The translations under genes were made by a program, and so were the position numbers. A stretch of DNA of 41,018 nucleotides from Thermococcus sp. (lineage in GTDB: Archaea; Methanobacteriota_B; Thermococci; Thermococcales; Thermococcaceae). This document shows, in pieces, positions 18,017 to 37,633 of this stretch. Numbering within the stretch: the first letter of the stretch is position 1; each line of letters starts with the position of its first letter. The DNA lies in assembly GCA_015520705.1 (NCBI GenBank), contig WAPO01000102.1:1-41018 (forward strand). The letters run 5' to 3'. Under the pieces are notes generated by a model. That model searched no databases. It saw only the letters and a program-made list of their open reading frames with translations, and was not told the DNA's origin.

Positions 18017-18694
18017 ATGAAACGTGCCATATTAATTCTTGGTGTTGTGGTTTTGTTTATCATTTCTGTCATAGGAATCGCAGTGGCCAGCGAGTCATAT
18101 GTTCTTTCAGATGTCTCTGGGGCATCTCAACGCAACGGAATTACAATCGTTGACAGGGACTACGGCTGGAAGAGCGCTCCGGAAAATCCGAAGGCAGTCT
18201 ACATAGCTGTGTGGGCGCCAGATCCATACAGGGGTTACATTGAGAGGGCTCTTATTGGAGTGGTGAAGGCCAATGGCCTCACCCCCGTAGCTGTGGAGAA
18301 TATTCCTAGATACGACCTCAGGGGGCGGGTGGTTCTTTTCTATTCCCCACTCATAGGAAAAGAAGACTACATGCTTACCGAGGAGCGCTCTATCTCTGGA
18401 ATACTCTACTACTCCTACGCGGGCGACGCTAAATCCGCGGTTGAGACCATCAACAACGGTCTAACTTTCTCGGAGACTGAAATATCCAGGTCTGCAGATA
18501 AATTCTGTGGAGCCAGCACGGAAAGGCTAACCAAGATGAAAATAGCCAACCAGAGCTGTGCCACCGCCTACTGGTTCGATCTCAAGGCCAAGGTCGGGAA
18601 GCTCAGCAACGACAACCCCTATGAGATGATTGCCAACGAGATAGCCTCACAGCTCGACCAGTTCCTCAAGAGCGATGAGTCAGATAAACCTTGA
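18017..18694 (+). CDS. Secreted or membrane-anchored protein, function unknown
   Basis: 225 residues beginning with a clear signal peptide or anchor (MKRAILILGVVVLFIISVIGIAVASES; cleavage plausible after AVA or SES). The rest is soluble, with two cysteines about 17 residues apart (FCGAST and QSCATAYW) that could form a disulfide outside the cell. I recognise no family. It has its own TATA-like CTTTTAAAGT just after the stop of the radical SAM gene, and GGTGGG before the ATG. Its end overlaps the convergent wecB by 15 bases. Confidence 0.75.
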   Translation: MKRAILILGVVVLFIISVIGIAVASESYVLSDVSGASQRNGITIVDRDYGWKSAPENPKAVYIAVWAPDPYRGYIERALIGVVKANGLTPVAVENIPRYDLRGRVVLFYSPLIGKEDYMLTEERSISGILYYSYAGDAKSAVETINNGLTFSETEISRSADKFCGASTERLTKMKIANQSCATAYWFDLKAKVGKLSNDNPYEMIANEIASQLDQFLKSDESDKP

Positions 18695-19813
18695 GCTCCT
18701 CACTTTCAGTTCTCCCTTCTTCCAGAGTTCGAGAAGGATTTCAGCTATCCTTTTCCCTGCTTTCCCGTCCCCGAAGGGATTGGGAGCACCTGCCATTTTC
18801 CTGTAAAATTCTTCATCATTGAGCAGTCTCTCAACGTAATGCAGAGCCCTCTCCTTTTCAAGACCCACCAGAACGTTTCCCCCCGCCTCTATCGTCTCCG
18901 GTCTCTCTGTGTTGTAGCGGAGCGTCAGACAGGGCACGTTAAGGATTATGCTCTCCTCTTGTATCCCTCCAGAGTCCGTCATGATGAGCTTTGCGTTCCT
19001 CTCAAGCTTCAGGAAGTCCAGATAACCGAGGGGCTTCATCACGGTGAGGTTCTCGATTGATTTGACTCTCTCCCAGAGTCCAAACTCCTCAAGCCTTCTC
19101 CTCGTTCTCGGATGCATCGGATAAACGGCCGTGATCGGAAGGTCTTCAAGTATCTCCACGAGCCTCTCAAGGTTCTCCTTCCTGTCAGTGTTCTCCGCCC
19201 TGTGGGCGGTTATCAAAACATACCCCTTGGGTCTGAGCCCCAGTCTGTCAAGCACATCGCTTTTCCTTTCGGCAACTTCGGCGTTCTGAAGAACTGCATC
19301 AACGATTGTGTTGCCCACAACGTAGACTCCCGAGGTTATCCCCTCCCTCTCAAGGTTCCTCCTCGCTTCCTCAGTTGGAGCAAAGAGAATCTCACTCGCG
19401 TGATCCGCCAGAATCCGGTTTATTTCCTCTGGCATGGTTCTGTCAAAGCTTCTCAGTCCGGCCTCAACATGTGCAACGGGTATCTTCAGCTTCACGCTTG
19501 CAAGTGCCCCGGCGAGAACAGTGTTTGTATCCCCCTGAACAAGGGTAACATCGGGTTTTTCCTCCATCAGAACCTTTTCTATTTTTATCATCGCCGTTCC
19601 TGTCTGCTCTGCCTGCGTCCCGGAGCCGACTTCGAGATGGTAATCTATGCCGTCGAGCTCAAGTTCCTCAAGAAAGACCCTGCTCATCTCATAGTCGTAG
19701 TGCTGGCCCGTATGGACTAAGAGCGGCTTAACGTCGAGCTCCTCGAAAGCCCTGATTACGGGGGCGAGCTTTATGATTTCAGGCCTCGTCCCAAAGACAA
19801 AAGCGGGCTTCAA
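18680..19813 (-). CDS. wecB: UDP-N-acetylglucosamine 2-epimerase (non-hydrolysing)
   Basis: Interconverts UDP-GlcNAc and UDP-ManNAc, first step to UDP-ManNAc acid (ManNAcA), a sugar used in surface glycans and archaeal N-glycans. 377 residues of GT-B fold: FGTRPEIIKLAPVI at the N terminus, HTGQHYDYEMS, AGLRSFDRTMPEEINR, the catalytic-region AHRAENTDRKENL, and TDSGGIQEES for UDP binding. The start is a TTG overlapping the wecC stop (TTGA, 19810-19813) with GGAGGGGGGAG before it, so it is translated with wecC. Confidence 0.95.
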   Translation of the reverse strand: MKPAFVFGTRPEIIKLAPVIRAFEELDVKPLLVHTGQHYDYEMSRVFLEELELDGIDYHLEVGSGTQAEQTGTAMIKIEKVLMEEKPDVTLVQGDTNTVLAGALASVKLKIPVAHVEAGLRSFDRTMPEEINRILADHASEILFAPTEEARRNLEREGITSGVYVVGNTIVDAVLQNAEVAERKSDVLDRLGLRPKGYVLITAHRAENTDRKENLERLVEILEDLPITAVYPMHPRTRRRLEEFGLWERVKSIENLTVMKPLGYLDFLKLERNAKLIMTDSGGIQEESIILNVPCLTLRYNTERPETIEAGGNVLVGLEKERALHYVERLLNDEEFYRKMAGAPNPFGDGKAGKRIAEILLELWKKGELKVRSSRFI

Positions 19814-21096
19814 TACTCCCCCCTCCCTATGCCCCTGAACACGAAGCCCTTGGGCGGTTCATCAATGAGGTGCCTTCCATCAACGAGAACCTTGTTCCTC
19901 ATGAGCTTCCCAAGCTCCTCCCAGCTGAGTCCCCTGAACTCCGTGTGATCAGTCGCTATAACAGCCGCATCGGCGTCCTTCAGGGCCTCCTCAAGGCTTC
20001 TGTGGCTCCCTTCCACGTAGGGGTCGTAGGAGCGCACCTCGGCAACATCGTCCCTAATCGCCTCAATGAATGCATAGGCAGGGGAGTTCCGAGTATCATC
20101 CGAATTCCCCTTGTATGCAAGTCCAAGAACCACGATGACAGCTTCCTCAGGCGGGAGGTTTATTGCCTTCAGCGCATCAAAAAGCAGGTCTTTGGCCATC
20201 AGGGGCATGTCTTCGTTGATCTCTCTGGCCTTCTGAATGAGTCCAAAGTCCTCCCTTGCTGAGCTCAACAGCAGATAGGGGTCCTTAGGCAAGCAGTGGC
20301 CGCCGACCCCGATTCCGGGCGTGTGGATTCTGACCCTCGGATGGGTGTTTGCAAGCTCAATTGCCCTGAAGACGTCAATCCCATACTGATGGGCCAGAAA
20401 GGCGAATTCGTTTGCAAGGGCGATGTTCACATCCCTGAAGGTGTTCTCCATCAGCTTCACCATTTCACTCGTTGTTGAGTTGGTTCTGAAAATCTGTCCT
20501 TTGACAAATGAGCGGTAGAGAACCTCGGCAAGTTCTGCGCTTTCCTCTGTGATTCCCCCTAAAATCCTCGAGTTGTAAACAAGCTCCTTGAATATCCTCC
20601 CCGGCATGACCCTTTCAGGGGCGTGGACCATGTAGAAATCCCTTCCGGCTTTGAAACCCCTGAGTTTTTCAATCAGCTCGGCCATCCTACTGGTTGTCAT
20701 TGGGGGGACAGTGCTCTCTATGATCACGAGGGAGCCCTTTTTCATAGCTCCTGCGACAGTTCTGACGGCATCTTCAAGATACTCCAGATTGGGGGTCTTG
20801 TCCTGTCTAAGGGGGGTCTGAACGCAGATTATGTAGATGTCCTTATCCTTGATGTCTCCGGGATTGGATGTGGCCCTCAGCTTTCCACTTTCCACAGCAT
20901 TCTTCAGGAGATAATCAATTTCAGGCTCAACAATATGAGAGTTCCCTCTGTTTATTTTTGCAACGACATCCTTCCTTATTTCATAACCCACTACATTAAA
21001 ACCTGCATCGGCAAACATTATGGCCGTGGGAAGTCCTATATACCCCAGTCCGATTACAGCAATCTCTGCTTCCCTCTTTTCTATCCTTTCCCTCAT
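19810..21096 (-). CDS. wecC: UDP-N-acetyl-D-mannosamine dehydrogenase
   Basis: Oxidises UDP-ManNAc to UDP-ManNAcA with NAD+, the step after WecB. 428 residues: N-terminal NAD fold with VIGLGYIGLPTAIMFADAGFNVVGYE, a middle domain with the catalytic cysteine in GVGGHCLPKDPYLL, and the C-terminal UDP-binding domain VVLGLAYKGNSDDTRNSPA. UDP-glucose dehydrogenase-family members share these motifs; pairing with wecB favours the ManNAc enzyme. ATG 21096 follows AGGTGAGGCAC; an upstream GTG at 21105 overlaps that site and is rejected. Confidence 0.94.
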   Translation of the reverse strand: MRERIEKREAEIAVIGLGYIGLPTAIMFADAGFNVVGYEIRKDVVAKINRGNSHIVEPEIDYLLKNAVESGKLRATSNPGDIKDKDIYIICVQTPLRQDKTPNLEYLEDAVRTVAGAMKKGSLVIIESTVPPMTTSRMAELIEKLRGFKAGRDFYMVHAPERVMPGRIFKELVYNSRILGGITEESAELAEVLYRSFVKGQIFRTNSTTSEMVKLMENTFRDVNIALANEFAFLAHQYGIDVFRAIELANTHPRVRIHTPGIGVGGHCLPKDPYLLLSSAREDFGLIQKAREINEDMPLMAKDLLFDALKAINLPPEEAVIVVLGLAYKGNSDDTRNSPAYAFIEAIRDDVAEVRSYDPYVEGSHRSLEEALKDADAAVIATDHTEFRGLSWEELGKLMRNKVLVDGRHLIDEPPKGFVFRGIGRGEY

Positions 21097-21122
21097 GTGC
21101 CTCACCTAACAAGTAGAGCGTA

Positions 21123-21152
21123 AAACCCAAATTTAAGGGTTTCCGGGAAACC
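21123..21152 (-). promoter_or_regulatory. wecCB promoter with two adjacent palindromes
   Basis: AAACCC (21123-21128) and GGGTTT (21137-21142) flank AAATTTAA, which is TATA-like. Overlapping it is GGTTTCC-G-GGAAACC (21138-21152), a perfect palindrome with 7-base arms. Two interlocking symmetric sites over a TATA element suggest an operator for the sugar-nucleotide genes. The symmetry is read directly from sequence; the regulatory role is inferred. Confidence 0.5.
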
Positions 21153-21391
21153 ATTTCAGAACGCAGATTGTAACATTTTCCAGCTGTTTTTTCTAACACC
21201 TTGGGAGTGCGGGCTGAAAAGGTGCAGGCCAGCATAAAAAGCACTATAAACAGGTAAATCATCAATTGAAAGCATTATAAACGTTTGAACATTAAATGCA
21301 ATAGAGGTAAAAGGTGAAAAATAAAGCTCCACAATCGTTTTAAGGAAAGCCTTTTATTGCTCAAAAGTGTTCAGTATACCGGTGTGTAAGA
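21153..21391 (+). promoter_or_regulatory. Intergenic region upstream of the DUF354 gene
   Basis: No gene was found. It holds a near-repeat, AAGCACTATAAAC (21239-21251) and AAGCATTATAAAC (21270-21282), both TATA-like and 31 bases apart, so the DUF354 transcript may have a leader of 80 bases or more. CACCTT (21197-21202) and AAGGTG (21219-21224) form a 6-base inverted repeat around a GC-rich loop, of unknown meaning. GGTGTGTAAGA before ATG 21392 is the ribosome site. Confidence 0.35.
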
Positions 21392-22519
21392 ATGAAGATA
21401 TGGATAGATATTACGAATTCACCCCATGCTCACTTCTTCAAGGGTCTAATCAGGGAGCTTGAAAAGGGAGGTCATGAAGTTTTAATCACAGCGAGAGAGT
21501 TTGACGGTCTCACAGAGATAATGGACATGTTAGGAATGGATTATTACACAATCGGCAGACATGGAGGTGCCACACTGGAAGGCAAGCTCTTAGCCAGCAC
21601 TGAGAGACAGCATAAGCTCGCCCGGCTGATAATTGAGGAAAAACCTGATCTTGCGGTGTATAAACACTCCGCTGAAGCTCCGAGAGTGGCGTTTGGCCTT
21701 CAGATACCTTCGATAGGCTTTGTTGATAATGAAACCGCAACCGGGCAGAACAAGCTCATCCTGCCATATACCAGTCTCCTCATATACCCAAAGGCCATTG
21801 ATGCCTATGAACTCCTCAGAAGCGGGGCTGACGTAAACGGCATGAGGCCAATCAACGGATTCGCGGAGCTGGCACATCTCTACGGATTCATCCCGGATAG
21901 AAGAGTCCTGAGGGAGCTGGGACTCAAAAAACACGGCTACATCGTCATGAGAACCGAGCCTATCAAAGCCAACTACTTCAACGCAGACTCGGAAAAAAGC
22001 GTTCTGGAGGACATAATTCCCCTCCTGCCTGATATTCCTATAATCCTCTTCCCGAGGACGGAAGGACAGAGAAAGAGGTTCGAGCACTTTGACAATGTGA
22101 TCATGCCTGAGCATGCCGTGGACAGCTTAAGCCTCCTTTACTACGCAAAGCTCATGATAGGTGCGGGGGGAACCATGAACAGAGAAGCTATAGCCCTCGG
22201 AACGCCGACAATCTCCACATATCCCGGAAAGCTTCTGGCGGTTACGAAGTGGCTCGTTGAAATTGGGGTGGAGTTCCATTCAAACGACCCCAGGGAGGTT
22301 GCTGAACACGCCTTTGAGCTGATGGAGAGAAACGGCCTCTACAGAAACCACATCCGGACGGTGATTTCGGGCATGGAGAACCCCGTCGATGTCATGCTGA
22401 AGGAAATAGAAACCTACGACGAAATAGGAGCCTTTGAAGTCGAGAAATCAACCAATGCCGGCAATCTCTGGAGTTATGTAGGCCTCAATGATGGCGGCGA
22501 TAAGAAGAAGAAGCACTGA
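21392..22519 (+). CDS. DUF354 (COG1817) glycosyltransferase-like protein
   Basis: A 375-residue GT-B-fold protein of the DUF354 family, related to WecB-type epimerases and UDP-sugar transferases. Signatures are MKIWIDITNSPHAHFFKGLIRELEKGGHEVLITAREFDG at the start, YKHSAEAPRVAFGLQIPSIGFVDNETA in the middle and IGAGGTMNREAIALGTPTISTYPGKLLAVTKWL near the end, where the UDP-sugar site should lie. No membrane segments. Its position divergent from wecCB suggests a role in making the same surface glycan. The last 24 codons run antisense to the end of the SpoIIM-like gene, an unusually long convergent overlap. Confidence 0.88.
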   Translation: MKIWIDITNSPHAHFFKGLIRELEKGGHEVLITAREFDGLTEIMDMLGMDYYTIGRHGGATLEGKLLASTERQHKLARLIIEEKPDLAVYKHSAEAPRVAFGLQIPSIGFVDNETATGQNKLILPYTSLLIYPKAIDAYELLRSGADVNGMRPINGFAELAHLYGFIPDRRVLRELGLKKHGYIVMRTEPIKANYFNADSEKSVLEDIIPLLPDIPIILFPRTEGQRKRFEHFDNVIMPEHAVDSLSLLYYAKLMIGAGGTMNREAIALGTPTISTYPGKLLAVTKWLVEIGVEFHSNDPREVAEHAFELMERNGLYRNHIRTVISGMENPVDVMLKEIETYDEIGAFEVEKSTNAGNLWSYVGLNDGGDKKKKH

Positions 22520-28972: not shown

Positions 28973-29533
28973 TTATCTCAGCTTCTCAAGGGCTTCCTTT
29001 GCTATCTCACCCAGAGGAACCCATTTCTTTCCCTCAAAAGGCAGAATCACCTTGTCCTCAACACCGCTGAGCTCTTCTATATACGGGACCGCATCCCTGA
29101 CCCCGAGCTCCCCGAGGAGCATCATTGCAAAGGCCCTGCTGTTCTTGTCGCCGCCATGAAGCTCCTCCATGAGGATTTGAACAACCTCATCCCTGAGCTC
29201 CTCCATGTCCTCAGGAAACATGCGCACGAGCCTGTATGACAGAACCATGGCGTTCTCCTTTACATAGGGATTTCTGTCCTTTGTGAGCTGAATGCTTCTG
29301 GACATTATCCTTTTCACATGAGGTTTAACTATGAGGGCATTACTTTCTGCCACGTTATTTAGAAGAAGAAGGGCATCTCCTCTTATACCCGCCATCTTAT
29401 CATCCAGCAACTCAATAAGACCTTCCAGGGCTTTTTTATCCTTTACAACCTGAGCTACTGCCTCTTCAAATCTCTCAGCCTCTATGAGCTTTTTAATCTT
29501 ATCTCTCTTTGAGCCGAACGAAAACAGCCCCAT
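28973..29533 (-). CDS. HEAT-repeat protein
   Basis: 186 residues of alpha-helical repeats: GLIELLDDKMAGIRGDALLLLNNVAE, HVKRIMSRSIQLTKDRNPYVKENAMVLSYRLVRM and EVVQILMEELHGGDKNSRAFAMMLLGELGVRDAVPYI are three or four successive HEAT-like units (D-x-x-x-R-x-x-A pattern). Such proteins are scaffolds; no catalytic motif is visible. ATG 29533 follows AGGTGGTATC. Paired with the BofA-like gene. Confidence 0.85.
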   Translation of the reverse strand: MGLFSFGSKRDKIKKLIEAERFEEAVAQVVKDKKALEGLIELLDDKMAGIRGDALLLLNNVAESNALIVKPHVKRIMSRSIQLTKDRNPYVKENAMVLSYRLVRMFPEDMEELRDEVVQILMEELHGGDKNSRAFAMMLLGELGVRDAVPYIEELSGVEDKVILPFEGKKWVPLGEIAKEALEKLR

Positions 29534-29643
29534 GATACCACCTTATTAAAACTCGTCTCCAGAGTATAAAGTCCTTTCGATTTCGTTAAGATTATAAAGA
29601 ACAAATGACTTCAAGGATAATAAACAAAAATGAGGGAGGTAAA

Positions 29644-30660
29644 GTGAGGAAACACTATGAAGTATATTTGAGGATTTTAATTGTTACATATATTACGTTT
29701 TTCTCTATATATTCTCTATTTAGGCATTGGTCATATTTAAGTACAGGTTATGATCTTGGAATTTTTATGCAGTCTCTTTGGAGCACCATCCACAATCAAG
29801 GATTTTTCTTTAATACCGGCGAATGGCAGGACATTGGGACTTACTCACATTTTGGCGTTCATAATCAACCCATTCTGTTTTTGCTTCTCCCGATTTACAA
29901 AATTCTTCCATATGCAGAAACATTGCTTATACTTCAAACAATTGCACTTGGCTTTGGGGCAGCAACATTGTTTAAATTTGCAAAACACGTCCTCAATGAT
30001 GATAGACGGGCTTTTTATCTGTCATTAATGTATCTTTTTAATCCGTTAATCCAAGGAATCAACATATTTGATTTTCATCCAGTTAGTCTTGCTGTTCCAT
30101 TCATATTCTTAATCCCCTACTATTTTGAAAAAAGAGAATACATTAAAACGACGATTTTCTCTTTAGTTGTTCTTTCGGTAAAAGAAGATTCTGGATTAAT
30201 TTTGACAAGCATAGGGTTAATGTTCTTGCTTATGAAACACAGAATTAAAGAATTGAGTAACCCAAGAAAATGGAGAAAGATCATTATAAAAAACAAAATC
30301 CCAACTCTGCTAATTCTCTTAGGCATTTTCTGGATAATCCTGAGTTTGTTTGTTATAATACCCCATTATAATGGAGGAAAATATCCTTATTTTGATGATA
30401 AAAGACTCGATAGATATGGGGGCGAAGTTTATTGGGATAATGCTATCGCCTACTTCCTTATAACAATGCTAAGTATTAGCTTTCTGCCGCTCTGGGACAT
30501 TCAGTTATTTTCTGCTTCAGCACTTTTATGGTTAGAGGTACTTCTTTCCAATAAACCAGAAATGGTGAGCCTCGGACACCAGTACCCCTATATGTTAATT
30601 CCGATGCTCTTGATACTATCTGTGTATAATTTGAAAAAATCCAGAGCGCAGAGATTGTAG
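29644..30660 (+). pseudogene. DUF2079 membrane protein, N-terminal part (split by frameshift)
   Basis: The first two-thirds of a DUF2079 (COG3463) polytopic membrane protein, 338 residues ending in an early stop. It matches the two intact paralogues downstream: YDLGIFMQSLWSTIHNQG, YSHFGVHNQPILFLLLPIYKILPYAETLLILQT, GINIFDFHPVSLAVPFIFLIPYYFE and VLSVKEDSGL. GTG 29644 follows GGGAGGT and aligns with the paralogues' N termini; ATG 29605 lies before the expected transcript start (TATA ATTATAAAG, 29591-29599). The missing C-terminal part lies in another frame from 30630, with a single A6 run as the likely break. Strongly AT-rich. Confidence 0.82.
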
Positions 30661-30698
30661 TTCTGGAGTTAAATAATATTAGACACATTTCACTTTCG

Positions 30699-31193
30699 AT
30701 GAAAAAGCTCGTGGGGATTTCTCTCATATCCATGTTCCTATTTTCTCCGGCATTTCATGTAATTGAAGCTCCAAGATACATTGCTGGAATGCCCATTCAA
30801 AAACTGGTACCGTTATATGTAAAGGGGAAGCCATACTTTGATGCTCTGGATGAAGTGACAAAGACATTGACCCAAACAGACTGTATCATCGTTACACAGA
30901 ACATGTTATTCCCTCATCTAGCCAATAGAAAAAACACTTATTACATTGTTACACCATTTAAATCTGTTTATGTTCCAAATAATTCGATTATTGTTGTAGA
31001 AGCTGTTCTACCCGACTATAAGTTTACTATTAGCTCCTTTGAAAATTACACAGAGGGTCATGAGGTGGATTTTAAACTGGTTAACACAACAACTTTAATA
31101 TTGCAATGTTCTGAAGAATATCTTGGAAATATCAGTGCTTGCATATTTAGGAAGTTAGAGAATATAATACAAAAATGCCATAAAGAAAAATAG
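30699..31193 (+). pseudogene. DUF2079 membrane protein, C-terminal part (split by frameshift)
   Basis: 164 residues from ATG 30699, but the frame is open back to 30630, just upstream of the A6 run 30634-30639. It carries the family's C-terminal motif, here TQNMLFPHLANRKNTYYIV (TQNDIFPxLANxxxTY in the paralogues). Reading one extra A in the A6 run would join the two parts in frame with a length similar to the intact copies. There is no promoter or ribosome site of note before 30699, so separate expression looks unlikely. Confidence 0.78.
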
Positions 31194-31337
31194 TGTTTGG
31201 AATATTAACAGCATTAGAACTAATATTGACTTTATTTTATTTGGAGAGTTAACACAACTTAGTGCCTTTCTTATTTTTCCTAAAAAGTCCGAAATACTTA
31301 AATTTTCCGGAGATACGAGTTTGTCTGGAGGAGCGAT

Positions 31338-32831
31338 ATGAGACTGAAAAAGACCAACGTGTTGTTATGGGGAATGATATCTGGATATATCCTGCTACTG
31401 TCAGCTATCTCTATCAATAGATATCAGACGTTTCGAACCAATGCCTTTGATCTAGGAATTTTCGTTCAGAGCTTTTGGTCAACTATAAATGGGAAAGGGT
31501 TATTATATAACACCGTTGAAAATATGGGGGTGTGCGTTAATACCCACCTAGCAGTTCATGCTTCTCCAATTTTACTGTTTTTAGTTCCGATTTATCGAGT
31601 TCTACCTTATCCTGAAACTCTTCTTATTGTACAAACCATCACAATTGGTTTTTCTGCATATCCTTTATATCTCTTGGGAAAAAAAGTTTTCAAAAATGAA
31701 AGATATTCTCTTGCGATTGTATCTTTATATCTGACTAATGCTCTCCTCCACGGGATTAACGGTTATGACTTCCATGAGGCTTCTTTTGCAATGCCGTTTA
31801 TTTTCCTTACCGCATACTATTTTGAGACGGGGGATTATAAGAGGGCTCTTGCATCTGGAGTTTTAGTTTTATTAGCAAAAGAAGATGCTGGAATAGCTTT
31901 ACTTTCTCTCTCATCATTTTACCTACTTAAAGATAAAAAGATTACAGTTTTAAATACCTACAAATATCTATTGAAAAAAATTTATTCTAGAGAATTCTCC
32001 CTATTTGAGAAATCTGCGATTCTATTGGGACTCGAGGGAATATTATGGACAATTTTAACAATGACAATATTACTCCTATTTTTTCCGGGAAGTCGGAGAC
32101 TTCATGAGGCCTATTATCATGATTTTCCATGCATCCAGTACATACCCATGAAAATCCTATATTTTGTAGTTGCAAACTTGACACTAGGTTTTTTGACATT
32201 CCTACGTCCAAAATACACATTTTTACTAACAACACTACCATGGATAGAGATACTCACATCCTGCCAGAAGAATCTCTTTAGAATAGGTTTTCAGTATCCA
32301 TATATGCTCTTACCCTTATCAATGATATCAATAGTTTACTCTTTAGCCGAGCTGGATAAAACAAAGGTCAAACAGTTTTTAGGGATAGGATTATCAGTTG
32401 GAATAATTATGTCCCTTCTTACAACTCCAGTTCTCCCAATTCATAATGAGGTAAAATCAGATCTTCTTGTTCCTCCATTTTACTATCAGCCAGTGACTCA
32501 TCATGATAGGGTTTTAATGAAAGTCACTCAAATCTTAGGAAGAACAGATTTATCAATTCTAACACAAAATGATATATTCCCCCAGCTGGCAAATCGTCCT
32601 AATACTTATGTAATCTGGTGGTCTTGTTGCAATCAGAGCATCCCTAAGACAGATATCATTCTTTTTGATGAAACCCTCTTATATTCAGCATATAATATGT
32701 TAGTAAAGGATTATCTTGTCAACTACACTAAGGTTTATGACTATGATGGGATAGAAGTATGGATTAGGAATGATACACTTAATACTCCTCAAGTTAGACA
32801 GGTGATATCTCAGCTGGAGGGAATAAAATGA
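31338..32831 (+). CDS. DUF2079 membrane protein (intact, AT-rich copy)
   Basis: A 497-residue polytopic membrane protein of the DUF2079 family. About nine hydrophobic segments are followed by a soluble C-terminal domain outside the membrane. The acidic residue after helix 1 (Asp38 in FDLGIFVQSFWS) lies where GT-C glycosyltransferases carry their catalytic Asp; that relationship is inferred. Other conserved parts are GINGYDFHEASFAMPFIF, LAKEDAG and TQNDIFPQLANRPNTY. TATA-like ACTTAAATTT (31296-31305) and GGAGGAG before the ATG give it its own promoter. Overlaps the next gene by four bases (ATGA). Much more AT-rich than the neighbouring genes. Confidence 0.87.
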   Translation: MRLKKTNVLLWGMISGYILLLSAISINRYQTFRTNAFDLGIFVQSFWSTINGKGLLYNTVENMGVCVNTHLAVHASPILLFLVPIYRVLPYPETLLIVQTITIGFSAYPLYLLGKKVFKNERYSLAIVSLYLTNALLHGINGYDFHEASFAMPFIFLTAYYFETGDYKRALASGVLVLLAKEDAGIALLSLSSFYLLKDKKITVLNTYKYLLKKIYSREFSLFEKSAILLGLEGILWTILTMTILLLFFPGSRRLHEAYYHDFPCIQYIPMKILYFVVANLTLGFLTFLRPKYTFLLTTLPWIEILTSCQKNLFRIGFQYPYMLLPLSMISIVYSLAELDKTKVKQFLGIGLSVGIIMSLLTTPVLPIHNEVKSDLLVPPFYYQPVTHHDRVLMKVTQILGRTDLSILTQNDIFPQLANRPNTYVIWWSCCNQSIPKTDIILFDETLLYSAYNMLVKDYLVNYTKVYDYDGIEVWIRNDTLNTPQVRQVISQLEGIK

Positions 32832-35050
32832 GGAATAAATTTCCTAAACAGATTATGTTTCTCCTAATTTTGATGATCTATTTCCTGACGCGTCTTCTCC
32901 GTATTGGCCTTATGGGGGAATACTTCGACTATGACGAGGGCACGTATCTGATGATGGCACGCCTGATAAACCACGGCTACCTTCCATATAGGGATATCTT
33001 CGCAGTCCATCCTCCCCTCTACTACTACCTTCTGGCCCTCTGGCTGAGGATTTTTGGAGACAGCTACATCATAGGGAGGTTGCTCTCTGTTCTCCTCGGC
33101 CTCATCTCCATAACTCTGGCCTACCTGACCGGAAGAGAGCTGAAAGACCGGAAGCTTGGACTGGCTTTTGCCCTCCTGCTGACTCTCGACCCTCTAATGA
33201 TACGCATGAACTCGCTGGTTCTCCATGAAACCCTCATAGAACTCTTCACCCTCCTGTCCCTCTACTACTTTGTGAGATATTTCAGAAGAAAAAATCTCAA
33301 ATACGCCTATCTAGCTCTATTCTGGGCCGGCCTTGGGAGCACGGCAAAGTTCACAATAATCCCATTCCTCCTCGCGCTTTACATCGTCATCATTCTCTCC
33401 CTCGACGACAGAAGCTGGAGTCATTTTGAAGGCATGGTAAGGTCAATCCTCACATCGAGGCAGGTTTTTGTAGTTCTTGCAGCATACACTGTTGCCGCGA
33501 TTGCAGTCATATCAATCATCACCGCGTATCCGGAGCGTATAGTCAGGCTTCTGGTAATCGTCCCGGGAATACATCCCGTCAACTTAGTGGGGCACAAATA
33601 CACAGCCGCAGTATTTCTCCTGCTCTGGGGAATTCTGACGGTGTATATCCTGAACCTCAGCTATGTTCATAAGCTGGCTGAAACGGTGCGCATCCTCCTC
33701 AGAAACTGGAAGATTGAGGTAAAGCTGGGGCTTGCAGTTCTGGCCGCCAAAGCCTTGGTGGAAGTGCCGCTGGGACTTCTTGTTTCAAAGAGCTATATCT
33801 CCCAGACATATCTCTCACAGGGCGGCAGATATCTTCCTTTTCTGGGCTTCTTCTCCCTGATGAATAAAATCCTCAAAAACCTCGGCGGGAATTCTCCAGA
33901 GTTTTTAGTGTATCTGGTTCCCCTCATGGTGCTCCTTGCATGGGTAATTCTGGCCGTTAGCAGGGGACACAGGCTTGAGGTGGAGAAGCCGCTGGCCGGA
34001 CTTCTGGTGATGAATATCTTTACCTTCCTCTTCCTGATACCGATACTGCCGGGTGAGCGCTTTATCTATCCCCTGTTCCTCGTCGCCTATCTGACCGCCC
34101 TGCACTCCCTCCTTTCCCTTCCACTACCAAGGAGGAAGGTGCTCGCCGCCCTCACAATAAGTCTGCTGGTCTTTTCGGCCATAGATTATGGAATGCTAAC
34201 AAATTATCCTGAAGGAAAATTAAAGCTCGCGTGGGGAGAGCACACGAACGAAATGAGGCACGACCTTAAAGGCTATCTGAAAGAACACAGCCTGCTGGCA
34301 GGCCTCTGCATGTCAGTCAATCCCATGAATGCATACTATCTGAACCTGAGAATTGATCCGCACCTTCTGGATACCTTTGGGCTGGCCTACCTGAAGAAGG
34401 AGAACCCAGGATTTATCATAGAACGCATAAAGGAGGAGAACACACGCTATGTGATACTCAGCACATGGATGTATGCAATAATGCAGAAGGATAAGAGGCT
34501 GAAAGCGATCTACGGCGCCCTGCAGAACTACACCCTCATAAACGGCACGCTTGAATTTGCTGAATCTTACTCAACAGGGGAGGTGCTTGAATTCTTCACG
34601 ATTGACAACGCCGGCAGAAACGTCAGCATCTCAACCCACTACGGGCGGCTGTATCTCTGGCTGAACGGAAGGAAAGCCGTAAAACTCTATCTGAAAAGAG
34701 GCAACACAACGTTTAACTGGAAAACGGTGCTGACGCGCAGGGATGGATCGGATGAATACCTCATGGAAAGCTGGAGTAAGGAGGGCAGAGAGGTTAATGC
34801 CAGCGTGGAGGTTGAAAAGACATCCATAAGGATAAGACCACCTGAGAATATCACAGCGGTGCTGGAATTCAAGGGGGTCGCTGTTAAGGAGGACGGAGAG
34901 CCGCTGAAGGTCGGGGAAGCTGTTACATCAGCATATCTGTATATAGGAGACATAAAACTCACGCTTTCTGCAGACCGCATCCAGATGAAGAACGGGAAGA
35001 TAGCTGCAGAAGGGCATGAAATCGTGCTGGGATACGGTGATGGTGGATGA
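32828..35050 (+). CDS. GT39-like (GT-C fold) membrane glycosyltransferase
   Basis: A 740-residue integral membrane glycosyltransferase. The catalytic acidic motif follows helix 1 (EYFDYDEGTY, Asp34, Asp36, Glu37), then DIFAVHPPLYYYLLALWLRIFG (His61-Pro-Pro), both typical of the PMT/ArnT-like dolichyl-phosphate-sugar users. About 12 hydrophobic segments run to residue ~455; the last ~280 residues are soluble, beta-rich and should face outside. The donor is probably a dolichyl-phosphate sugar; the acceptor is unknown. It overlaps the DUF2079 genes on both sides by four bases. Base composition shifts from AT-rich to normal at about 32885. Confidence 0.87.
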   Translation: MRNKFPKQIMFLLILMIYFLTRLLRIGLMGEYFDYDEGTYLMMARLINHGYLPYRDIFAVHPPLYYYLLALWLRIFGDSYIIGRLLSVLLGLISITLAYLTGRELKDRKLGLAFALLLTLDPLMIRMNSLVLHETLIELFTLLSLYYFVRYFRRKNLKYAYLALFWAGLGSTAKFTIIPFLLALYIVIILSLDDRSWSHFEGMVRSILTSRQVFVVLAAYTVAAIAVISIITAYPERIVRLLVIVPGIHPVNLVGHKYTAAVFLLLWGILTVYILNLSYVHKLAETVRILLRNWKIEVKLGLAVLAAKALVEVPLGLLVSKSYISQTYLSQGGRYLPFLGFFSLMNKILKNLGGNSPEFLVYLVPLMVLLAWVILAVSRGHRLEVEKPLAGLLVMNIFTFLFLIPILPGERFIYPLFLVAYLTALHSLLSLPLPRRKVLAALTISLLVFSAIDYGMLTNYPEGKLKLAWGEHTNEMRHDLKGYLKEHSLLAGLCMSVNPMNAYYLNLRIDPHLLDTFGLAYLKKENPGFIIERIKEENTRYVILSTWMYAIMQKDKRLKAIYGALQNYTLINGTLEFAESYSTGEVLEFFTIDNAGRNVSISTHYGRLYLWLNGRKAVKLYLKRGNTTFNWKTVLTRRDGSDEYLMESWSKEGREVNASVEVEKTSIRIRPPENITAVLEFKGVAVKEDGEPLKVGEAVTSAYLYIGDIKLTLSADRIQMKNGKIAAEGHEIVLGYGDGG

Positions 35051-36558
35051 GATTCTCCCAGAGCAGGGCCAATTATCTTGTTTTCGGCATGATAGCGGTA
35101 TATATCATAGTTTTCTACTCACTCCAGCTCAATATCTACTACACTTTCCGAAGCCTTGGCACAGACTTGGGGATATTCATGCAAGCCCTCTGGAATACAA
35201 TCCACGGAAACGGGATATTCTACAACAATATAGAATGGCAGCTTCACCATGGAGTAAGAACTCACTTCGGAGTCCATAACTCCCCCGTGCTCTTTCTCCT
35301 TCTTCCGGCGTACTACCTCGCACCCAAGGCCCAGACCCTCTTTTTTCTCCAGACCACGGCAATAGGTCTTTCGGCATATCCACTTTATATGCTGGCAAGA
35401 AGGGTTCTGAAGAATCAAAAGGTGGCCGTGCTCCTTGTGGCTTTATATCTCTTCAATCCCGCACTGCACGGGATAAACCTCTATGACTTTCATGCAGTCC
35501 CCTTTGCCATGCCGTTCATCTTTATGACGGCCTATTTTATAGAAGAAAAGAACTGGAAGGCCGCATTCATCTCCTCCGTTCTCATACTGTCGGTCAAAGA
35601 GGATGCTGGACTGGCAGTCTTAAGTCTGGCCATGTTTTACCTTCTGAAGGATGCCAATCTCTTATCCCCGGATACATACAGAGCACTGTTGAGTCCATCT
35701 CCACAGCAGAAGACTCTTCTCCTTCTGGGACTTACCGCCATCCTCTGGATTCTGCTGAGCATTAAAGTTGTAATCCCTCACTTCGCTCCGGCGGGTTATG
35801 AATACACGGGGCTTTACAGGAATGCATGTCCAAACTATCTCTTCAGAAAACTCCTCTTCTTTTTGCTCGTGAATATAAGTATGGGCATGCTGGCGCTCCT
35901 CAAACCCAAGCACTTTCTTTTACTGACCGCCCTGCCGTGGATGGAGTTGTTAGCTTCGTGCAGGTGGGAGATGTTTGTTATCGGAACCCATTATCCCTAT
36001 ATGATTCTCCCGCTTTCATTCATCGCCATAATTTACACGCTTCGAGAGATACAGCCAGAAGCGTTTCTCAAGATAACAGGGATCGCAATAACGCTCGGGA
36101 TTGTGAGCTCTCTGCTCCTCACTCCAGCACTACCTGCTCTCTCTCTTCAGCCGGGACTTCCCGTGGTGTTCTGGGGCCATGAGGAAATAACATCCCATCA
36201 CAGAATGCTACTCAGGATAACGGAGAAGCTGGAGAAATCAAACTATAATATACTGACCCAGAATGACATCTTCCCCCATCTGGCCAATAATAAAGGCACG
36301 TATTTTATAGGGATAGATCTCTACAGAAATCTTCACAATCCAGAATACCTAACGGAAACGCTCTCCATAGACATAATCCTGCTTGATTCGAAGCTGGATA
36401 GATACTACACAAGTGTCAGACCTCAACTACTGGAAATGTTCCATGAGTCAGGCTACGTTAAAATCGCTGAAATCGATGGTATTCAAATATTTGCAAGAAA
36501 AGGCCTTAAAAAGGATAAAAACCTGCAGGCACTGTTAAACGTCTCACGGCGGAGCTAA
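35047..36558 (+). CDS. DUF2079 membrane protein (intact, normal composition)
   Basis: The third paralogue, 503 residues. It starts with an ATGA overlap into the GT39-like gene. Asp40 in GTDLGIFMQALWNTIHGNGIFYNN, GINLYDFHAVPFAMPFIFMTAYF, LSVKEDAGLAVLSL and TQNDIFPHLANNKGTYFIG correspond to the same parts of the other copies. About nine membrane segments and an external C-terminal domain. Its base composition is that of the rest of the window (31 of 60 G+C in 35461-35520), unlike the second paralogue (15 of 60 in 31681-31740). Biochemical function unproven. Ends in a four-base overlap with the convergent pilin-like gene. Confidence 0.87.
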   Translation: MRFSQSRANYLVFGMIAVYIIVFYSLQLNIYYTFRSLGTDLGIFMQALWNTIHGNGIFYNNIEWQLHHGVRTHFGVHNSPVLFLLLPAYYLAPKAQTLFFLQTTAIGLSAYPLYMLARRVLKNQKVAVLLVALYLFNPALHGINLYDFHAVPFAMPFIFMTAYFIEEKNWKAAFISSVLILSVKEDAGLAVLSLAMFYLLKDANLLSPDTYRALLSPSPQQKTLLLLGLTAILWILLSIKVVIPHFAPAGYEYTGLYRNACPNYLFRKLLFFLLVNISMGMLALLKPKHFLLLTALPWMELLASCRWEMFVIGTHYPYMILPLSFIAIIYTLREIQPEAFLKITGIAITLGIVSSLLLTPALPALSLQPGLPVVFWGHEEITSHHRMLLRITEKLEKSNYNILTQNDIFPHLANNKGTYFIGIDLYRNLHNPEYLTETLSIDIILLDSKLDRYYTSVRPQLLEMFHESGYVKIAEIDGIQIFARKGLKKDKNLQALLNVSRRS

Positions 36559-36734
36559 CCCTCCAGTCCGCTCAGCTCACTGCTTATTTTGCTTTCTTCA
36601 GTGCTTATGGTTTTACCAGCTTTTCTCGCATACCCCTTTACACCTATAAGCTGAACGATTATGAGCGCGCCTATAATCAGCGCTAGTGCAAATATAAAGA
36701 GATACTCCAAAGAGGCCTGTGCACGTTTATTCAT
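36555..36734 (-). CDS. Class III signal-peptide pilin-like protein (59 residues)
   Basis: Very small protein starting MNKRAQASLEYLFIFALALIIG. The positively charged N terminus followed by Q-A-S-L-E-Y and a hydrophobic helix is the class III signal peptide (pfam04021 type), cleaved before the Gln by a dedicated EppA-type prepilin peptidase. The mature part is a helix plus a ~30-residue polar tail (TISTEESKISSELSGLEG). It shares the tail pattern SKIS-ELS-L with the neighbour at 36784 and is a tandem paralogue. Ribosome site: GGTGGGGTTAGT lies upstream of the ATG. Confidence 0.85.
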   Translation of the reverse strand: MNKRAQASLEYLFIFALALIIGALIIVQLIGVKGYARKAGKTISTEESKISSELSGLEG

Positions 36735-36783
36735 ACTAACCCCACCAGAAGTCCAAAATAAGAAAGATGTGATAGAAGTTAAA

Positions 36784-36957
36784 TCATCCGCTTAAGAGAC
36801 TGCTGAGCTCTTGGCTGATTTTACTCTCGGCTGCGCTTGCTGTCTGTTCTGCACTGCTCCCTTTGCCTTTGAGCTGCCTCACGACGATTAAAACAATAAC
36901 AAGTGCGGCAGCAATCATAAACAGATATTCTATTGCACCCTGGGCTTTCCTCTTCAT
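36784..36957 (-). CDS. Class III signal-peptide pilin-like protein (57 residues)
   Basis: Starts MKRKAQGAIEYLFMIAAALVIVLIVV: basic N terminus, Q-G-A-I-E-Y class III cleavage motif and a hydrophobic helix, then a short polar tail (SAAESKISQELSSLLSG). It is the first gene of a probable two-gene operon with the paralogue 49 bases downstream. GGGGGTGGTATT precedes the ATG. Such minimal pilin-like proteins may be pilus subunits, minor pilins or adhesin parts. Homology to the neighbour is clear; role is inference. Confidence 0.86.
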   Translation of the reverse strand: MKRKAQGAIEYLFMIAAALVIVLIVVRQLKGKGSSAEQTASAAESKISQELSSLLSG

Positions 36958-36981
36958 AATACCACCCCCAAAGCATTACTC

Positions 36982-37015
36982 TTAGCTATTTAGGCTAAAA
37001 AAGCTTATATATCTT
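36982..37015 (-). promoter_or_regulatory. Promoter and inverted repeat upstream of the pilin-like genes
   Basis: GATATATAAG on the minus strand (about 37004-37013) is a strong TATA box, giving a start near 36980. TTAGC (36982-36986) and GCTAA (36994-36998) form an inverted repeat between TATA and start, a repressor-type position. The divergent HTH gene begins 115 bases from the pilin ATG and is a natural candidate to bind here; that is inference. Confidence 0.5.
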
Positions 37016-37072
37016 TCTCCCTAAATTTGAGTGATTTATCCTCAATAATGTGGTACTTCCAAAGGTGGTATT

Positions 37073-37633
37073 ATGAAATTGGTCTCTATCCAATGCGAAT
37101 CCTCAAGTGTTGAAGATTGTATAAAAGAAATCGTGAAGAAATCGCATATTTTGCTATCCTCCACCCCGGGTTTAATAAAATCTTCGAAAATTTCCTTGAA
37201 CTTTGGGGCTTTTATGAATCTGCGAATACTTCTGTTGATAGATGAAAGCATTCCCGGAGAAAAGGGAATTATTGTATCATATGCATCAGGAAGGCACAAG
37301 GATGAGGCCCTGAACAAAGTGCTTGAGAAAATCAACAGCCGGCTGGAAAAAAGATATCAGGTGGTGAACTTTGAAACAGGCACATATACAATGCCAGTTA
37401 CGAGGAGAACATATGCGGTGGGAGTCGTTGTATACAATATAAAAACCCAGAATGGCGAGCTCAGCACACTCACACTTAAAGGGAGGAGGGAGCTAATAGC
37501 CAGAGCCCTTGAGATGTTTAACTACAATCCAAAGGTTCTCAACATCTCGGAACTTGCCCGGATGTTCGGTGTTTCCAGGGATTCTATATACTACGACATC
37601 GAACAGATTCTCAAAGGCAGGAAAAAACTTTAG
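37073..37633 (+). CDS. Helix-turn-helix protein, likely regulator of the pilin-like genes
   Basis: 186 residues. The N-terminal ~140 form an alpha/beta region I do not recognise (MKLVSIQCESSSVEDCIKEIVKKSH, then RILLLIDESIPGEKGIIVSYASGRHKDEALNKVLEKINSRL, and VGVVVYNIKTQNGELSTLTLKGRRELI). The C-terminal 40 are a clear HTH: LNISELARMFGVSRDSIYYDIEQILKGRKK. ATG 37073 follows AAAGGTGGTATT. Divergent from the pilin genes and convergent with the protease, overlapping it by four bases. Function inferred from location; a direct role in pilus control is plausible but unproven. Confidence 0.8.
   Translation: MKLVSIQCESSSVEDCIKEIVKKSHILLSSTPGLIKSSKISLNFGAFMNLRILLLIDESIPGEKGIIVSYASGRHKDEALNKVLEKINSRLEKRYQVVNFETGTYTMPVTRRTYAVGVVVYNIKTQNGELSTLTLKGRRELIARALEMFNYNPKVLNISELARMFGVSRDSIYYDIEQILKGRKKL

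Follow-up and report, generated by a model that had tools for sequence, protein, structure and literature searches.

The three overlapping membrane genes at positions 31,338 to 36,558 of the window, the window being one whole 41-kb contig (41,018 nucleotides) of a 2.27-Mb Thermococcales draft genome, form an operon that is read here as a putative glycosylation cassette dedicated to the tiny type IV pilins encoded beside it, with a probability of roughly 0.6. The cassette is probably exchanged horizontally and probably carries out O-linked glycosylation reserved for these pilins. The GT-C fold of DUF2079, the linkage of the locus, the exchange of partners and the pattern of sequons and Ser/Thr in the pilins were all computed here; the O-linkage, the donor, the way in which GT39 and DUF2079 divide the work, and AglB as the alternative enzyme are inferences.

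The Operon and Its Neighbours

The operon lies on the forward strand and consists of D2 (31338..32831), a DUF2079 protein of 497 amino acids predicted to be GT-C; GT39 (32828..35050), a PMT_2 protein of 740 amino acids and the core of the cassette; and D3 (35047..36558), a DUF2079 protein of 503 amino acids with a predicted GT-C fold. D2 and D3 match PF09852 at 163 and 197 bits, and the curated cut-off of this family is 28.2 bits. Successive genes overlap by exactly 4 bases, just as the earlier note had described for three membrane genes, and the motifs that it had seen in the DUF2079 copies are indeed common to both, with DLGIF at residue 38 of D2 and residue 40 of D3, and YDFH and TQNDIFPxLAN in each. 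It had missed a third copy, D1, which lies upstream on the same strand as two pieces in different frames. The N-terminal piece (29605..30660) matches PF09852 at 172 bits over profile positions 1–310; the C-terminal piece (30699..31193) contains TQNMLFPHLAN, scores 13.7 bits, which is below the cut-off, and was recognised by alignment to intact homologues of 517–527 amino acids, with which both pieces are collinear. The frame break may be a true lesion or an error of the draft assembly, and if D1 is intact in the organism, the operon would contain three DUF2079 genes.

The GC3 of D1 and D2 is 0.31–0.35 (0.31 for D2), against 0.60 for GT39, 0.55 for D3 and 0.55–0.71 for the S2P, AcnL, HEAT and aRF1 genes, and the low values of D1 and D2 suggest recent import. 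Among the ORFs seen from 28973 to 37633 there is no gene for a donor synthase or a flippase. Genes for a UDP-GlcNAc 2-epimerase, a UDP-sugar dehydrogenase and a DUF354 protein are located at 18680-22519 of the window, about 9–13 kb from the cassette, and these possibly supply nucleotide sugars for surface glycans.

Two tiny pilins with class III signal peptides and without any sequon are encoded on the reverse strand: PILb (36555..36734, 59 amino acids, PF04021 at 3e-6) and PILa (36784..36957, 57 amino acids, PF04021 at 1.4e-8). They had been thought to start inside the region of the last stop codon of the operon; in fact they are convergent with it and it is the stops that overlap, so that an operon with downstream pilins in the same direction is rejected. 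They are followed by c3 (37073..37633, forward strand), a conserved protein with a C-terminal HTH (weak HTH matches), which serves as the marker of the locus and was detected in 85 of the 94 Thermococcales genomes. Each of the 146 pilins found is encoded on the other strand from c3 and at most 732 bases from it, and wherever pilins were found, c3 diverges from them. It is strongly conserved, its N-terminal domain is without assignment, and a sequence comparison with the PDB gave a single weak TetR match (0.02) and no clear known relative; judged by its sequence, c3 is a candidate regulator of the pilins.

GT39 as the Constant Part of a Variable Slot

The GT39 protein matches both PMT_2 and PMT above the cut-offs (75.9 versus 26.1 bits and 35.8 versus 22.7 bits, respectively), and D36-E37 and H61-P62-P63 are invariant in 16 of 16 sequences; the D-E pair in the first outer loop is taken to be the PMT motif. 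An AF2 model built from four sequences was discarded (pLDDT 45). Residues 573–736 form a C-terminal beta-rich region of moderate model confidence (block means about 58–88), possibly a carbohydrate-binding-like domain.

In Thermococcales, GT39 was detected in 44 of 94 genomes (47 matches at E ≤ 1e-30). As many as 45 of these matches lie within 7 kb of c3, and the other two are one in a genome without a c3 match and one fragment on another contig; no full-length copy unlinked to the c3 locus was found. In all 43 GT39 genomes that have c3, the pilins adjoin c3, and this conserved neighbourhood, together with the loss of pilin sequons described below, supports the earlier suggestion that pilins are a possible glycan target.

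The site of the operon is a fixed but variable slot beside the tiny pilin pair and the HTH gene: in the loci viewed, the space between the aRF1/HEAT block and the pilins is either empty or occupied by a cassette. The partners of GT39 were counted by hand in the 29 GT39-bearing loci viewed: DUF2079 is present in 12 (together with c56 in two of these), c56 but not DUF2079 in 13, another PMT_2-like protein in two, and no partner in two. The c56 proteins are a DUF6541-like family; when four members were scanned, one reached the DUF6541 cut-off, another scored slightly below it, and the remaining two had no match. The partner of GT39 is interchangeable and may be DUF2079, a DUF6541-like protein or a PMT_2-like protein. 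Of the DUF2079-GT39-DUF2079 module proposed earlier, the three-gene operon is real but its constant part is GT39, and DUF2079 as the core gene is rejected, since it is swapped among loci. DUF2079 occurs near c3 in 13 genomes, and GT39 is there in all 13.

Extra genes in keeping with glycan synthesis occur in some cassettes: L065 has GT2, GT4 and a flippase, L073 has GT2 with a methyltransferase, L039 has UbiA with a radical SAM protein, and L088 has a radical SAM protein. The UbiA-family and radical SAM genes lie inside the GT39 cassettes of these relatives (L039, 5536-7998; L088, 5742-6797), and could point to an unusual donor, e.g., pentofuranose. The GC3 of cassette genes is often below that of their flanks. 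In genus g3, of which two loci were viewed (L115 and L116), the c56-GT39-pilin-c3 block is intact between other neighbours.

Among the 50 DUF2079 matches in Thermococcales, 35 are away from the c3 locus, and a motif scan of the fetched loci revealed no convincing pilins beside DUF2079 genes elsewhere. A fourth DUF2079 gene is found in the same genome as the window (contig C87, L053, 168-3059), 3 bases downstream of a gene for a PMT_2-like protein (508 amino acids, 29.2 bits; PMT_2 cut-off 26.1 bits), so that the DUF2079/PMT_2 pairing recurs outside the pilin locus. A contig labelled as a WOR-3 bacterium MAG (L123) carries a D2-like DUF2079 gene and GT39 with the same 4-base overlap, and is possibly a misbinned Thermococcus contig. 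Outside Thermococcales, DUF2079 was absent from all 10 further genomes surveyed; DUF2079-like proteins, mostly of 670 amino acids, were observed in Streptococcus infantis and its relatives (L134, L138-L142), and those aligned keep the invariant Asp and His.

Fold and Conserved Residues of DUF2079

The AlphaFold (AF2) model of D3, made from an input alignment of 25 archaeal and bacterial sequences, has a pLDDT of 92.4 and a pTM of 0.92. When it was compared with the PDB by Foldseek, 19 matches were obtained at E ≤ 0.001, all of them GT-C proteins (STT3/OST, PglB, ArnT and DPY19). In VIA-align, Z was 19.9 for OST STT3 (428 residues, 5.1 Å), 18.7 for Pmt4 and 18.3 for ArnT, and it was in the range of 16–20 across STT3, Pmt4, ArnT, PglB and AglB; Pmt1-Pmt2 and the GT-C mannosyltransferases ALG9 and ALG12 are further fold matches, and each of the best 50 matches listed is a GT-C enzyme or a relative of one. 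The comparison of DUF2079 with GT-C folds, which had been proposed as a check, thus comes out in favour, in that the D3 model matches solved GT-C enzymes, and the membrane domain of DUF2079 is plainly predicted to have the GT-C fold. A sequence search of the PDB with DUF2079 gave no match at E ≤ 10. DUF2079 may already belong to the GT-C clan of Pfam, so that the fold by itself is possibly no novelty.

The Asp after helix 1, whose position had been likened to that of GT-C transferases, is D40, located in the first loop of the D3 model between helix 7-32 and the start of helix 39-52. It is invariant in 20 of 20 sequences from Thermococcales and, like H77, H149, E185 and D186, in 25 of 25 sequences from archaea and bacteria. 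In a profile comparison, D40/H77/H149 of DUF2079 pair with D36/H61/H137 of GT39 (a single, local comparison over 119 columns; probability 71, E 3.8e-5). DUF2079 would most likely act as another GT-C transferase besides GT39, occupying a slot also filled by other GT-C-like families, although the sequon link tracks GT39 and so does not in itself prove a role for DUF2079.

Sequons and Ser/Thr in the Pilins

AglB-dependent N-glycosylation requires the sequon N-x-S/T. Sequons were scanned in the tails of small pilins (50–99 amino acids), with expectations taken from shuffles, in 118 pilins of 65 genomes; the other 20 of the 85 genomes, all without GT39, have long pilins only (16) or no complete small pilin (4). 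In genomes without GT39, 40 small pilins contain 98 sequons versus 35.6 expected; in genomes with GT39, 78 small pilins contain 42 versus 44.3 expected, that is, the level of chance. No genome without GT39 is free of sequons (0/22), versus 23 of 43 with GT39, and among the genomes that combine DUF2079 with GT39 the fraction is 10 of 13. The effect is present in both pilins.

The state of GT39 changes at least 13 times on a tree that was built from four flanking proteins of the same locus, which were possibly exchanged along with it. Among 11 supported independent pairs, a low number of sequons goes with GT39 in a mean of 9.2 and the reverse in 0 (sign test, median p 0.004), the threshold of a mean below 1.5 sequons having been set after the data were seen; other codings gave 6.9 to 0 for PILa without sequons (p 0.016) and 4.7 to 0 for no sequon at all (p 0.06). 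A phylogenetic regression, which needs no threshold, assigns to GT39 a change of −1.94 sequons per pilin (p 1.6e-19). By the same kind of regression, the Ser/Thr share of the pilin tail rises by 0.06 with GT39 (p 1.6e-4) and Asn outside sequons shows no change (p 0.33). Decoy motifs are flat, with p values of 0.22 for N-x-other, 0.84 for D/Q-x-S/T and 0.55 for the reversed form. The shuffles and decoy motifs reject composition as the origin of the pattern. A general loss of sequons is rejected as well, for the archaellins of the best 30 loci show no difference by GT39 status (153 seen versus 110.8 expected with GT39, 132 versus 90.3 without). Loss of AglB is an unlikely cause, since STT3-like proteins occur in 94 of 94 genomes; all of them score below the curated cut-off of the family, which leaves it uncertain that they are AglB.

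Two observations count against the reading. Genus g3 retains sequons in all seven of its GT39 genomes, at 1 to 2.5 per pilin. The long pilins of the 16 genomes without GT39 show no enrichment (27 sequons versus 36.0 expected), which means that N-glycosylation is not a general default. In some GT39-free genomes (L084, L089, L090, L093, L104, L105, L117 and L118), the tiny pilins have been replaced in situ by pilins of 124–164 amino acids, and all 16 genomes that have long pilins at the locus lack GT39.

Proposed Mechanism and Alternatives

In the proposed mechanism, the pilins would enter the membrane with their class III signal peptide, and outside the membrane GT39 would transfer a sugar from a polyprenyl-phosphate donor to Ser/Thr of the short exposed tail. 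DUF2079, with D40, H77, H149 and K184-E185-D186, may extend the sugar added by GT39 or provide a different linkage. Small pilins at loci without the cassette carry N-x-S/T sequons, which AglB presumably uses; at loci with the cassette, its activity would make N-glycan sites unnecessary, and the sequons would no longer be selected. The O-linkage is favoured because Ser/Thr rises and the core enzyme belongs to the PMT family.

The cassette might instead glycosylate another target (an S-layer protein, a lipid or an exopolysaccharide), adjacency to pilins being a chromosomal habit and the sequons being lost because pilin glycans are not needed. That most DUF2079 genes are not beside pilins, and that genus g3 keeps its sequons, would agree with this; but no unlinked full-length GT39 exists among the matches, the g3 block stays whole in other surroundings, the sequon change is specific to the pilins of the locus, and their Ser/Thr share rises, which leaves this account unlikely. 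Haplotype hitchhiking, in which pilin alleles and cassette state are transferred horizontally as one block and the distribution of sequons stems from a small number of allele types and not from selection, draws on the GC3 of cassette genes, often below that of the flanks, and on the fact that the tree comes from linked genes. It is quite improbable given the 13 state changes, the 11 independent pairs with none against, the excess of sequons over the shuffled expectation in GT39-free pilins only, and the effect in both pilins. A cassette that builds or extends a lipid-linked oligosaccharide used by AglB, and so alters N-glycans, would suit the ALG9 and ALG12 fold matches and the STT3-like proteins found throughout, and is nonetheless very doubtful, as N-sites are lost from the pilins exactly where the cassette is present and GT39 is PMT-like. 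Finally, that GT39 glycosylates the pilins with DUF2079 as a degenerate GT-C partner, stabilising or presenting the substrate without transferase activity, would explain why the partner is exchangeable or absent (GT39 alone in 2 of 29 loci) and why the sequon link follows GT39, but is highly improbable in view of the Asp, His and K-E-D residues, which are invariant from archaea to bacteria.

Comparison with Known Systems

TfpW and TfpO, the pilin-linked glycosyltransferases of Pseudomonas aeruginosa, are among the closest parallels of the proposed pilin-dedicated cassette. A reference cited in the portion available of PMC11841053 has a title that describes TfpW as GT-C; according to that portion, the transferase likewise accompanies and decorates a particular pilin group and varies by strain. 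The two systems also share the closeness of the transferase gene to the pilin gene, but the cassette is archaeal, usually has at least two GT-C-like proteins instead of one, and would serve tiny pilins with class III signal peptides whose N-sequons are replaced. A transferase gene of the TfpW/TfpO type presumably runs in the same direction as its pilin gene, whereas the operon of the window and its pilins are convergent.

The cassette enzyme shares the PMT_2 and PMT families and the D-E and HPP motifs with the GT39 protein O-mannosyltransferases Pmt4 and Pmt1-Pmt2, both of which rank high among the fold matches of DUF2079; it differs in having DUF2079 or DUF6541-like proteins as partners. Subunits of surface filaments, namely archaeal pilins and archaellins, are also the targets of AglB-dependent N-glycosylation, and the fold of DUF2079 is matched best by STT3; unlike the substrates of AglB, PILa and PILb have no N-x-S/T. 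Three-component extracytoplasmic systems, as outlined in the part available of PMC11127046, comprise a donor synthase, a flippase and a GT-C protein. The GT-C last step is shared, and GT2/GT4/flippase (L065) and UbiA (L039) resemble the other components, but the operon of the window is without donor synthase or flippase and its target is apparently a pilin and not a polysaccharide.

In the archaeal pilus census, as far as the text available of PMC4858521 goes, stand-alone pilins of about 70 amino acids are probable major pilins, and a term search of that text found no word starting with "glycos", "mannosyl" or "transferase". No paper naming DUF2079 was found in the literature searched, a single paper matched PF09852, and the titles on pilin glycosylation in Thermococcales or Thermococcus included nothing describing this locus.

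Significance

The chances are about even that the cassette represents the first protein O-glycosylation system to be identified in archaea, made of a horizontally exchanged GT39 and a GT-C partner (DUF2079 or DUF6541-like) at one pilin locus, and that in evolution it takes over from AglB N-glycosylation on these subunits, in which case the sugar chemistry of the pilins could be read from their sequons. The locus sets candidate enzymes beside candidate targets, and it predicts which species would have O- or N-decorated pili. For DUF2079, the model would provide a first function-level reading of the family. The possibility that pilus glycans set the receptor specificity of viruses is raised in the portion available of PMC7347861, and if this is so, a rapidly exchanged cassette would be a plausible arena of host–virus conflict.
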